From Apostichopus japonicus (taxonomy: Eukaryota; Echinodermata; Holothuroidea; Aspidochirotida; Stichopodidae): DNA of 64,000 bases. Below, piece by piece: positions 58,267 through 62,883 of this stretch. A program made the position numbers and the translations under genes. Position 1 is the stretch's first letter, and every line of letters begins with the position of its first letter. The notes beneath the pieces were generated by a model. It was not told the origin of the DNA and searched no databases. It worked only from the letters and a program-made list of their open reading frames with translations. The stretch covers positions 21,918,960-21,982,959 of the forward strand of contig NC_092563.1 in the NCBI RefSeq assembly GCF_037975245.1. Reading direction: 5' to 3'.

Positions 58267-58892
58267 CTGTCGACAATCGAGGAATGTTAAAATGGAATAA
58301 TAGCTTAATCTGACATGAAAGTAGAGAAAGCTTCTTCCTGGGCAATTAACATCATGTTTATTTATTTCTTAATGCAGAAATGAATACAACCCTTATCTTT
58401 TCCCTCAGTTGTGTTTTATTTGTTGGGGAGCAGATCTTCATTATATTCTCTGCCATGTATTAAAGGTAAAGAGATGTTTGTGTTTATACTGTTCTTTTAA
58501 TCGCTGAAACATCTCCCCTCCCACTGCCCCTCCACCCCAGCCACCCCCTCCACCCCATTCACCCCCCCCCCCATACCCCATCACATGTGTATATACAGTA
58601 TTCAACTGAAAGACCACCTGGCAATGATACAAATTCTTGTGTACAAACGAATGAAAAAGTTTCTGTGCAGTTCTCTGCAATTGCTTCAAATTTAAATATT
58701 CAAATCAAATGACCAAACTTTATATTTGACACAATCACTCAATCCAACAATATTTTGACCAAGTATTACAAACAACCTACTAGGCATTAACTTCTGAAAC
58801 CTCAAATTTACCTTTCGTATCAATACAAGTTAAATCTCTCACAGTGCACTGTGGTGAATATAAAACAACAACTTGACAAGAATTTGCAAAAT
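58267..58892. other. TENT4 intron or 5' flank
   Basis: Nothing coding was seen. It has a C-rich run near 58500-58575. The partial SPG7 copy begins at its right edge. Confidence 0.4.
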
Positions 58893-58995
58893 GCTAATTA
58901 TGAAAACTGAATAATTATGTTCATCAATGTATCTTCCCAACAGAATTAATACTTTATGATTTAGATTCAACATTCAGAGAGACACCATACTGTAC

Positions 58996-59079
58996 CTTCT
59001 TCATCTTTTTGTTCCTGTTTCTCATCATTTTGATTTTGTCTGTTGGATTGTCTGGGAGAACTGGAAAATTATAAAGTTG
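58996..59079 (-). pseudogene. SPG7 exon 3 copy with premature stop
   Basis: It has the same 84-bp length, acceptor and donor as exon 3 at 37564-37647. A CAA codon has become TAA at 59069-59071, so transcripts reading exons 1', 2' and 3' would stop here. Confidence 0.85.
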
Positions 59080-59670
59080 CTGAAAGAAAAAAGATCACAC
59101 AATAATTACACGCAGCCAACATTCTCATCACAAAAGGTAACAAACTTTGGTTTTAGATTAATAGGCTCGGTGTACCCATTAAACAAAGTTTTTAGTCAAC
59201 AACATGAATTTACAAATTTAAAGCTAGGTCAAATGAATATTAATTCCAAACGTTAACATTATTAATACAAAAGGCAAGGCAGACTAATGTTACACATGTT
59301 GCTTTACAAATTTAAACAAAGTACAGTAATTCACTCTTTGAATAGTAGTGATTAAATATTTGATTATAAAATCAAGAATCTCAATTTTGTTTTTATTCAT
59401 GATTTAATGAAGGGTCCTAAACAAAAGGATGACATCACTGTTCTTCCTCAGCTCTTCCAATCTTAAGTCAGCCATCCTAACGTAACATCATGAACATTTA
59501 AAAAAGTTAACGAATGACCCCTTTCGCCTGATTTTGTTTTTGAAACTGAAATGACCACATAAACAATGGTTTACAAGATTTTATTTCCAATAGTATTCTC
59601 ATTTCTATATTTTACCAAGTTCTTTTTGATCAAGACATTATGGAAACTCACAATCAGACCTGGAACTTAC

Positions 59671-59782
59671 CATTTATGCCCAGAATATTTTTCAAACTGG
59701 TATTGCTCAAAGTAGATCTTTGTATTATGCTTAGTAAAGCATTGAACACTCTCCTTCTTTGGGTACTCCAATGTGATGAAAC
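59671..59782 (-). pseudogene. SPG7 exon 2 copy (frame intact)
   Basis: 112 bp like the functional exon, with about five base changes and few amino acid changes (ALQSII to [14 protein letters not shown] to STLSNTSL). Splice sites are preserved. It could still be spliced in frame to the functional exon 3. Confidence 0.8.
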
Positions 59783-59963
59783 CTGAGAAGGGATATAAGG
59801 AAAAAAATGAAAAACAGGGTTTCAGTTAAGGTGATCTGGAAAACATTGGTTTACAGTATGTAACTTCTCAAATGGCTTTCATTAATGCTGCCAAAATGTA
59901 TTGACTTTACACATCATAACTGTAGACAATGTCATGGTTGTATCAAGGAGCTAAATACTGTAC

Positions 59964-61355
59964 TAGTGTTTGCACGGGTTATCCGGGTACCCACCCGACG
60001 CGATACTACCCGGTTCCTAATTTATTACTCGAATCCTACGCACAGTGTGATTTAAAAAAAAAAAAATTGGCAAACCGACGGTTAGGCAAATTTCCCATTG
60101 ACGTAGTTTGGTGTTAGGCTACAATGCGGTCGAAGATAACAGCAATAACGAAGGAACCCACTCGACGCGATACTACCCGGTTCCTAATTTATTACCCGAA
60201 TCCTACGCAAAGTGTGATTGTGTAAAAAAAAAAATTGCAAACTGATGGTTAGGCAGATTTCCCATTGACTTAGTGTGTTGTTAGGCTACCATGAGGTCGA
60301 AGATAACAGCAAAAACGAAAGCTTTCCATAGATATCTTATAACTGCGTCACAATTTTTGCTAATAAACAGATGGCTAGGCTAGATTACCCCTATTGACTT
60401 AGTGTGGTGTTAGGCAACCATGTGGTCGAACATAATGTTGCAATAACGAAAATATTCCATGGATGTCTTATAACTTCGTCACAACTTCAGCAAATAAACA
60501 GATGGTTAGGCTTAGCTAGATTTCTCATTGACTTTGTGTGGTGTTAGGCCTTGGTCTTGGTGTGATACTGCACAAATCGCCCCTGATGTGGCTGTTAATG
60601 TGCAGTCCTCCAAGCTGGCTAATGGTGCTGCTGACTTCCCAGCATTAACTTGAAGGAGGCGGTGTTTGGTGCTGATTTTAGACTACCATGTGGAAGAAAT
60701 TATTATTTATTCATTCGTTTATTTCATAAAAGTAAAGGCTGGCAAGGAATTTTAAGAGATGTTTATGGATTATAGACGGGATAACTAAAAAACAGTAATC
60801 GCAAGTGGCTTTTTACTAATCGTTTTTTTCCAAATGCGATCAAATTGCGGGAATCGCGCAATCTCGCGGCTAATGCGAACCCTGGGCCTGCATAATAGAT
60901 AGTAGTAGTAGTAACAACTGTTTAAGAGCTAACTGGATATTTATATGGTTTGATCCAATAGACGTGCACGAGCAAGCAAAAGCAGCGGCGGCAGTGCGAT
61001 GTTAGTATTAATGCTAATTATAATTAAATAATTAATTTATTAACAAGTTAATGAAAGAAAAAAGACAAATAAAAATTATTGAGGAAGGTTTTACACCTTA
61101 TCTTGCACAGGTCTACGTATTTGAACATAATGCATTTATTACATCATCCAATATGTTATTTCTTGAAAATCGTGATATACGAGGGTAAACAATTTTTTCT
61201 AGGTATGTATGTATGTATGTATGTATGTATGTATGTATGTATGTATGTATGTATGTATGTATGTATGTACGTACGTACGTACGGGTACCCGGATACCCGA
61301 CGGGTAACGGCCCTTGGGTACCCGGTTCCCGATTTTTGGACCCGTGTAAATACTA
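59964..61355. mobile_element. DNA transposon unique to SPG7 copy 2, with (ATGT)n array
   Basis: Ends TAGTGTTTGCACGGGT and the complement of ACCCGTGTAAATACTA form inverted repeats with GGGTACCCGG blocks inside each end. Flanks CTAAATACTGTAC and CTAAATACCATAC duplicate a sequence that is single in copy 1 at 38549-38561. Inside is a (TATG)n array (61204-61282) and two similar ~150-bp blocks near 59990-60120 and 60160-60300. The inverted ends resemble a hAT type, but the duplicated flank is longer than 8 bp. No transposase was recognised. Confidence 0.75.
61204..61282. repeat. (TATG)n microsatellite
   Basis: About 16 TATG units followed by a few TACG units, inside the transposon at 59964-61355. 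Confidence 0.98.
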
Positions 61356-62652
61356 CTAAATACCATACTAAATTTGGGTCTTGGTTTCTTTGCTGCAAAA
61401 ATACTATAATACGCATGCACATTTTTGGTATGTTCCTGTACAATTCTGTTCCATGCTAAAAACGGAATTAAAATTTAAATACCTGATTGTACGTAGAAAG
61501 ATTGAGAAATGTATTCAACCACACTCTAATATTAAATGGCATGGCTAAAATGATACCAGAACACGATAACATGAACAATTTAAATATGGACTCAACTAGA
61601 TGAATACTTAACTGTTCAACATGCTCCTTGTTTTTTTTTCTGAAGTTTTAGAGGCTAAATCTCATTTATAAACCCAAGTGAAATGTTCTTGAAGATGGGA
61701 ACTAGTAACCTCCTATTTAAATGATTAGGCTTGGCATCTATAAGATTAAAAGCATACTCTTAGTTTGCTATGTACATTAGAGTGTATATTTTCATAATCC
61801 ATTCTGATACATGAACCACTTGCACAAATTACTGCTGGAGTAAACCAGCATTAATGCAAGTTGAGCATGTTCTATATACATAAATTTCTGAAACATTCAA
61901 CTGGAAACTTTCCCAATGACTCTTATATAAGATCTAATTGCATCCTGTGTCAAATAGTTCTTGAAAGATCTTTGATGTGACCTGCATAAGTTTATGGTAA
62001 TCAAACTTTAAAGCCTCATTATACATACAAACTCCACTTCTACTTTCACTAAACAATCTTTTCATGGTAACTAACTTTATGACAATATTGTCAGAATTTT
62101 GGTTTATTTACACAGTTCAAAGAAATGAAAATTTCAGACAAGAAAATTGTTTAATATCCACAACATTAATCATGCGTATACATGTGTGGGTACTGGGCAG
62201 GAGCTTTGAGCTTTCGTTCATAACTGTACATGTGTTGTGTGTAACCACTACTGTATGCTTAGTACCATAAATGATGGCATTACATAATATATCTGGCTCT
62301 CTCTCACAGTTTTCTGTAGCAGATATAGCCATTAGAATGACACATTTATAAACAGTCTTGACTCATTAGTTCTTCCCTGGCAGTTGAATGTTCGACCGTA
62401 TTTAGTGTTCACTGTGTATCCGTCATCATTTTTGTTTCTAATTTTTCAAATTACAGACAATACGTACATTTGCTTGTGCCAGTGTTAGCCTATGATACCG
62501 TGAATGCCACTACAACAATACTGTATTTACACACATGAATGCATACTGTAAACCATTGGCAATTTTGCATGCATGAAAATGATGAAACTACATTACAACT
62601 ACAGTATTTACAAACTGCAGGAGTGTGAGACTTAATGCATAACATTGCATAC

Positions 62653-62866
62653 CAAGTTGATGTTGAAGTGGTAAAGTTGGCCTTCATATCTTCTGACTTG
62701 GTTCCTTGCTCTGCCTTGTATTGCCGAACATGTGCTGAACACCGATGATTGCAAGTGATGACAGTTTGTATTGTACCTTGAATTATTAAGTTGAGATACT
62801 TTGTACTGGTTATTTGCACAACTTGCACTAGACCTTTCATTCCATACGTTATGCGCCGGTGTGACA
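62653..62866 (-). pseudogene. SPG7 exon 1 copy lacking the start
   Basis: It matches exon 1 from NVWNER through QVRRY and keeps a GTATGC donor in phase 0. Homology stops at about 62866, before the start codon. The last ~35 bp before the donor differ from copy 1. Confidence 0.75.
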
Positions 62867-62883
62867 GTACAGAGTGTCCCCCT

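Follow-up and report, generated by a model that had tools for sequence, protein, structure and literature searches.

The sea cucumber Apostichopus japonicus carries, in a 64,000-nucleotide stretch of contig NC_092563.1 (here C3; C3:21918960-21982959, hereafter the window), the gene SPG7 and, some 20 kb upstream, a second copy of its first exons. This copy is the first of ten units on C3 in which the 5' part of SPG7 adjoins the 3' part of another gene, TENT4, and the whole array very probably goes back to a single tandem duplication across SPG7 and TENT4, followed by amplification and decay. A preliminary description of the window had seen a single broken copy upstream of the real gene; a broken copy does exist there, but it heads a chimeric array. 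The genome searched comprised 671,581,487 bases in 35 contigs, and the assembly report gives a HiFi/Hi-C assembly made with hifiasm, of 671.6 Mb in 23 chromosomes and 34 scaffolds (PMC10344927). Judged from titles and the beginnings of abstracts, the literature searched on SPG7, TENT4 and sea cucumbers holds no description of the array.

Results

A chimeric SPG7-TENT4 array between two complete parents

Outside the parent gene, SPG7 5' sequence was found in ten units on C3 (21.97-22.37 Mb, the window's second copy counted) and once on contig C18, always in plus orientation as in the window. We refer to the C3 units as U0 (in the window, 21.97-21.98 Mb), U1 (22.02-22.03 Mb), U2 (22.04-22.07 Mb), U3 (22.11-22.135 Mb), U4 (22.17-22.18 Mb), U5 (22.21-22.23 Mb), U6 (22.26-22.27 Mb), U7 (22.28-22.29 Mb), U8 (22.32-22.33 Mb) and U9 (22.35-22.37 Mb); the stretches read exclude the junctions of U5 and U9 and parts of U2 and U4. 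Every SPG7 5' copy is adjoined by TENT4-like 3' exons, with the TENT4 part on the left and the SPG7 part on the right in a single orientation, and the array ends in a complete SPG7 gene on the left and a complete TENT4 gene on the right, which is the layout of a tandem-duplication chimera. All ten C3 units contain TENT4 exon 9, as do C18, C9 and the TENT4 parent. The duplicated portion of SPG7 comprises exons 1-5, from window 36076 to about 43.0 kb, and TENT4 exons and intergenic DNA were duplicated with it. The units, mostly 88-95% identical over several kb, are clustered and accompanied by dispersed copies; with matches of 1110 bp at 90.5% identity and, between U1 and U6, of 11.4 kb at 99.2%, they are segmental duplications in the usual sense of sequence of at least 1 kb and at least 90% identity that is not a high-copy repeat.

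The junction between the two genes is shared on both of its edges. The TENT4-side edge, represented by a 200-bp piece of U1, recurred at 85-100% identity in all seven units read there (U1 itself, U2, where it occurs twice, U3, U4, U6, U7 and U8, of ten on C3), and the homology to the TENT4 parent ends near base 5258 of stretch L021. On the SPG7 side, 9 of the 10 matches beyond the window begin at window position 36076 and that of U5 at 36131. A dispersed repeat in intron 5 of the parent (35705-36076), with copies genome-wide at 91-98% identity, has its edge at 36076 as well, and a 37-bp minisatellite is located in the junction. Both edges thus point to one shared junction that sets the 5' part of SPG7 before the 3' part of TENT4. 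Of the SPG7-TENT4 intergenic segment (42934-55660), the piece at 52000-54040 was matched in all 11 intervals that separate the SPG7 parent, the ten units and the TENT4 parent from one another, its own interval included. This segment also holds a 40-bp tandem repeat at 50863-51187.

A tandem duplication with its endpoints within two genes fuses the 5' part of the first gene with the 3' part of the second, and common edges with a fixed layout are the prediction for such an event in two neighbouring genes. The founding duplication would have reached from SPG7 intron 5, through the intergenic DNA, into TENT4 intron 3, so that each new junction set TENT4 exons 4-10 downstream of SPG7 exons 1-5 and their 5' flank, while the two complete genes remained at the ends, SPG7 on the left and TENT4 on the right. 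The segment would then have been amplified to ten units on C3, by unequal exchange as we infer, at least one unit would have been copied to C18, and the units would have decayed as duplicated pseudogenes through stops, frameshifts, deletions and repeat insertions.

Relations among the units point to later exchange as well. Trees of short segments (11 rows each; the SPG7 tree without U2, C9, C17 and the TENT4 parent, the TENT4 tree without U0, C9, C17 and the SPG7 parent) gave two groupings at 100/100, one of U0 with U3 and one of U3, U8 and the TENT4 parent; these make exchange among units likely. The near-identity of U1 and U6 belongs to a block of about 24 kb, C3:22005385-22029829, that repeats at C3:22243995-22268453 with a near-constant offset of about 238.6 kb and may have been duplicated very recently or be a duplicate introduced by the assembly.

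Beyond C3, the unit on C18 (stretches L019-L020, C18:4326800-4341500) yielded no TENT4 exon 4, so that SPG7 exon 5 is followed there by TENT4 exon 5 with matching phases; the other exons of this unit are frameshifted. In the stretches read, C17 has TENT4 exons 5 and 7 only and C9 exons 8-10 only. The C17 sequence (C17:35036900-35041740) is a dispersed, TENT4-only piece, and C9:35443500-35467000 likewise holds TENT4-only pieces, with exons 8-10 reversed and without stops, together with intergenic pieces. Within the array, U2 carries TENT4 exon 4 twice (6203-6331 and 8345-8473 of stretch L007), a local tandem duplication inside the unit.

The two parental genes

The first five exons of parental SPG7 lie on the minus strand at window 42792-36174 and form 262 open codons; the ends of these exons were placed by GT/AG dinucleotides and phase. 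Exon 1 (42472-42792, 107 aa, open) has its ATG at 42790-42792 and is followed by exon 2 (38248-38359), exon 3 (37564-37647), exon 4 (36922-37073), in which the FtsH_ext domain begins, and exon 5 (36174-36290), which carries the remainder of that match and has a phase 0 donor. Across exons 1-5, FtsH_ext (PF06480) scored 25.5 bits, exactly at the Pfam cut-off. The 3' half of the gene, with the AAA and Peptidase_M41 exons according to Pfam, occupies 18858-31272 on the same strand, and 21800-26150, the portion tested, is single copy apart from dispersed repeats. The AAA exon matched paraplegin (2qz4) with 141.8 bits and AFG3L2 (6nyy) with 112.1, and p97-type chains matched the same short exon slightly better still, with up to 146.2 bits. 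With its FtsH_ext, AAA and M41 parts, the gene is nearer to paraplegin than to AFG3L2; the names SPG7 and TENT4 otherwise follow the human proteins. SPG7 introns hold large minisatellites at 26229-30156 and at 32156-33590, the latter with a 60-bp unit.

The last TENT4 block, at C3 22.413 Mb, is followed on its right by the first three exons of TENT4, of which exon 1 starts MDRKISWHQPEQ; with exons 4-10 they form an open reading of 719 aa. The palm (MTPAP-like/NTP_transf_2) and PAP_assoc domains of this parent exceed the Pfam cut-offs, and its best PDB match is 3nyb (1.3e-49), which we take to be Trf4; the gene is Trf4-like. Among the stretches read, exons 1-3 were seen solely past the last unit, and the exon 2-3 region, one dispersed repeat aside, is single copy. 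On C3, C17 and C18 a search with the palm families found no N-terminal palm exon, but it also missed parental exons 2 and 3, so the absence of these exons elsewhere rests on the exon comparison and on the search with the exon 2-3 region. Other poly(A) polymerase genes, on C2 and C4, were rejected as a source of the TENT4 parts: the C2 and C4 stretches read gave no match to the TENT4-like exon peptides at 1e-3, and the parent proved to cap the array on the right.

The window also contains, at 12379-14848 on the plus strand, a Cupin_8-like gene, for which we presume a kinship with JmjC proteins; PF13621 matched 12379-13092 with 24.7 bits, below its cut-off of 27.4.

The second copy in the window

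Comparison of the window with itself by BLAST aligned 37459-42659 with 58891-62867 in five collinear blocks of 61-1110 bp on the same strand, spaced 20.2-22.8 kb apart. As the preliminary description had stated, SPG7 exons 1-3 thus recur with their introns about 20 kb upstream, and at 90.5-96.2% identity, introns included, with E-values down to 0, chance is excluded. TENT4-like 3' exons do lie between the two copies, at 55.9-58.3 kb on the minus strand: exon 10 (56303-56801) has an in-frame TAG and is cut by an inversion of about 425 bp (55886-56311) that is private to U0 among the matched copies and flips its last ~90 bp or so to the plus strand, exon 9 (57219-57609) is open, and exon 8 (58146-58266) is identical to the parental exon. 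A deletion junction follows at 58601-58890, where TENT4 intron 7 is joined to an insertion in SPG7 intron 3; the deletion removed TENT4 exons 4-7 and SPG7 exons 4-5, and the sequence at 58601-58900 is 100% identical to U3.

The SPG7 part of U0, also on the minus strand, was described in part correctly. Exon 3 (58996-59078) indeed has an in-frame TAA, its acceptor AG being kept as judged by eye, and exon 2 (59671-59782) is open with both its AG and GT splice sites. The assertion that all splice sites are kept does not hold for exon 1, whose 3' part (62686-62867) has a donor reading GA in place of the parental GT (placed by phase). The start codon reported as lacking is indeed not in the window; an ATG exists, though, in the 5' part of exon 1, which lies at about C3:21,989,865, some 8 kb off behind insertions of 6.28 kb and 1.6 kb. 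The first 1.13 kb of the 6.28-kb repeat, which splits exon 1, fall within the window (62868-64000) and have at least 23 other full-length matches at 96-100% among the 40 of 201 candidates scored. The longest stop-free frame of this element is 157 codons, and its ends resemble short inverted repeats by eye. A further dispersed-repeat insertion (59966-61355) has dozens of copies genome-wide. U0 is thus the first unit and among the most degraded ones.

Decay of the units

Retained introns and disabling changes mark the units as duplicated (unprocessed) pseudogenes. The TENT4 part is damaged by a stop, a frameshift or a truncated or missing exon in 9 of the 10 C3 units; exons 4-10 are wholly without stop or frameshift only in U8 (U5 exon 4 lies outside the stretches read, and U5 exon 7 contains a stop). 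An in-frame TAG in TENT4 exon 6 of U4, U5 and U7 depends on the upstream acceptor chosen, and each of these units has another defect. The SPG7 part carries a stop, a frameshift or a truncated exon in seven of ten (some SPG7 exons of U2 and U4 being outside the stretches read), which leaves exons 1-5 all open in U1, U6 and U8. U1 and U6 keep the ATG and are open over 260 aa, and the start of U8 reads GTG. Since the donor of SPG7 exon 5 is of phase 0 and TENT4 exon 4 requires phase 2, direct splicing of the two reads GAG TGA and gives GRE-stop in all three units with exons 1-5 open. Were TENT4 exon 4 skipped, U8 would be open for 769 codons, as phase 0 is common to SPG7 exon 5 and TENT4 exon 5.

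The present regime is best reflected by private changes, those confined to one of 12 rows (U0-U5, U7-U9, C18, C9 and C17), counted without gapped columns and without flank rows of less than 80% identity to the consensus; U6, being near-identical to U1, was left out here and from the pairs of units. In the SPG7 part there were 18 synonymous, 55 non-synonymous and 3 stop changes (omega 0.99, p = 1), in the TENT4 part 45, 89 and 6 (omega 0.66), and the stops were near the neutral expectation (3 against 3.7 expected for SPG7, 6 against 4.2 for TENT4). Private substitutions thus look neutral in the SPG7 part and nearly so in the TENT4 part.

Several observations weigh against an array that arose once and then decayed without function. 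All twelve exons tested in U8 are free of stops and frameshifts. Measured against the parents, the ratio of non-synonymous to synonymous divergence (dN/dS) comes to 0.21-0.50 in SPG7 and 0.16-0.52 in TENT4, comparisons of fewer than 60 codons being dropped, and the corresponding pooled ratio between units (pN/pS) is 0.48 and 0.50, respectively; we weighed these ratios below the private changes because they include the constraint on the parents and possible exchange with them. The private changes of the TENT4 part themselves lean towards constraint (p = 0.028), and private-change rates in exons (0.0120 and 0.0086) are below those in flanks (0.0205 and 0.0123), a gap that counts against a purely neutral reading and that alignment or exchange with the parents may have caused. 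On the side of origin, the trees were poorly resolved, one leaving open 5 of 8 inner branches and the other 4 of 8, and the intergenic DNA is not uniform, as the piece at 44700-47590 was found at full length just once more on C3 (22333264, 96%), with a partial match at 22371708 and others on C18 and at dispersed places, among the 40 of 904 candidates scored. All evidence on the array, moreover, was drawn from a single assembly. Taken together, the sequences suggest that the units are duplicated pseudogenes, whose absence of function we infer, with a deeper history that was probably constrained or involved exchange with the parents and with a small residual chance of function for U8, U1 and U6.

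Discussion

The preliminary description had left two explanations standing for the second copy, a real partial duplication and a diverged second haplotype wrongly placed in the assembly. That a diverged allele or duplicated haplotig was set in series by the assembler has some appeal in a highly heterozygous species (1.59% by k-mers; PMC5638244), and the 99.2%-identical pair of U1 and U6 could in principle be of this kind. A misplaced haplotig would be expected as two copies diverged by about the heterozygosity, but here ten collinear units with differing indels and insertions lie between parents at opposite ends and share a junction edge, and the window copies differ by about 9% in their main blocks against 1.59%, which two alleles do not fit. 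In flanking introns the C3 and C18 units are 4-13% off the parents (0.069-0.132 from SPG7, 0.042-0.112 from TENT4), and among the pairs compared only U1/U6 (0.8%) is clearly in the allelic range, besides the short U0/U3 stretch at 99-100% identity. The assembly, finally, was built by hifiasm from HiFi reads with a mean length of 14.7 kb (PMC10344927). An assembly mix-up is therefore very unlikely as the source of the second copy, and a real partial duplication is strongly supported. Less probable still is the capture of fragments of both genes by a transposable element that then spread them. Copies on C18, C9 and C17, the many dispersed repeats within units and the coincidence of the SPG7-side edge with the edge of a dispersed repeat would suit such an element, but the order in which intergenic DNA and introns travel is fixed, and the array is bounded by both parents; on these grounds we disfavour capture, element termini at unit ends not having been searched for systematically.

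Somewhat more probable, though still unlikely, is another reading, in which the duplicated SPG7 5' flank drives some units as functional chimeric genes. U8 or U1/U6 might be transcribed from the duplicated SPG7 promoter and might yield a new mitochondrial protein, either a paraplegin N-terminal fragment of about 260 aa, ending at the stop in TENT4 exon 4 and perhaps acting as a decoy, or a paraplegin-TENT4 fusion of 769 codons with exon 4 skipped. The open exons 1-5 behind the ATG of U1 and U6, the open frame of U8 and the pooled pN/pS of about 0.5 between units are in keeping with this; against it stand the GTG start of U8, the stop on direct splicing in all three units, the damage to the TENT4 and SPG7 parts of most units, the neutral private changes of the SPG7 part and the lack in the TENT4 part of exons 1-3, which include what we take to be the exon encoding the nucleotidyltransferase G-S motif. 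Such a unit, if real, would represent a young chimeric gene of tandem-duplication origin, maintained while its sister units decay.

A single SPG7-TENT4 tandem duplication, then amplified and decayed, thus remains the reading to compare with known systems. Akin to the array, the tandem-duplication chimeras of Drosophila yakuba (PMC5460883, PMC4503668) leave both parents in place. Those chimeras are described as recent and segregating (PMC4503668), whereas here one junction was amplified to ten old, largely broken units. Low-copy repeats or segmental duplications, for which PMC4053137 gives over 90% identity, resemble the array in size, in identity, in clustering and in dispersed copies; the array differs in lying in an echinoderm and in being capped by both complete parents, which makes the founding event readable. 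It is an ordinary segmental duplication in an unusually readable form, real and well explained.

What had been suspected as an assembly error is settled as a true array, as far as an analysis of sequence can settle it. The locus offers a readable case in which one tandem duplication with endpoints in two genes gave rise to a field of chimeric units, with intact parents for comparison, and its annotation may list spurious SPG7 or TENT4 paralogues.

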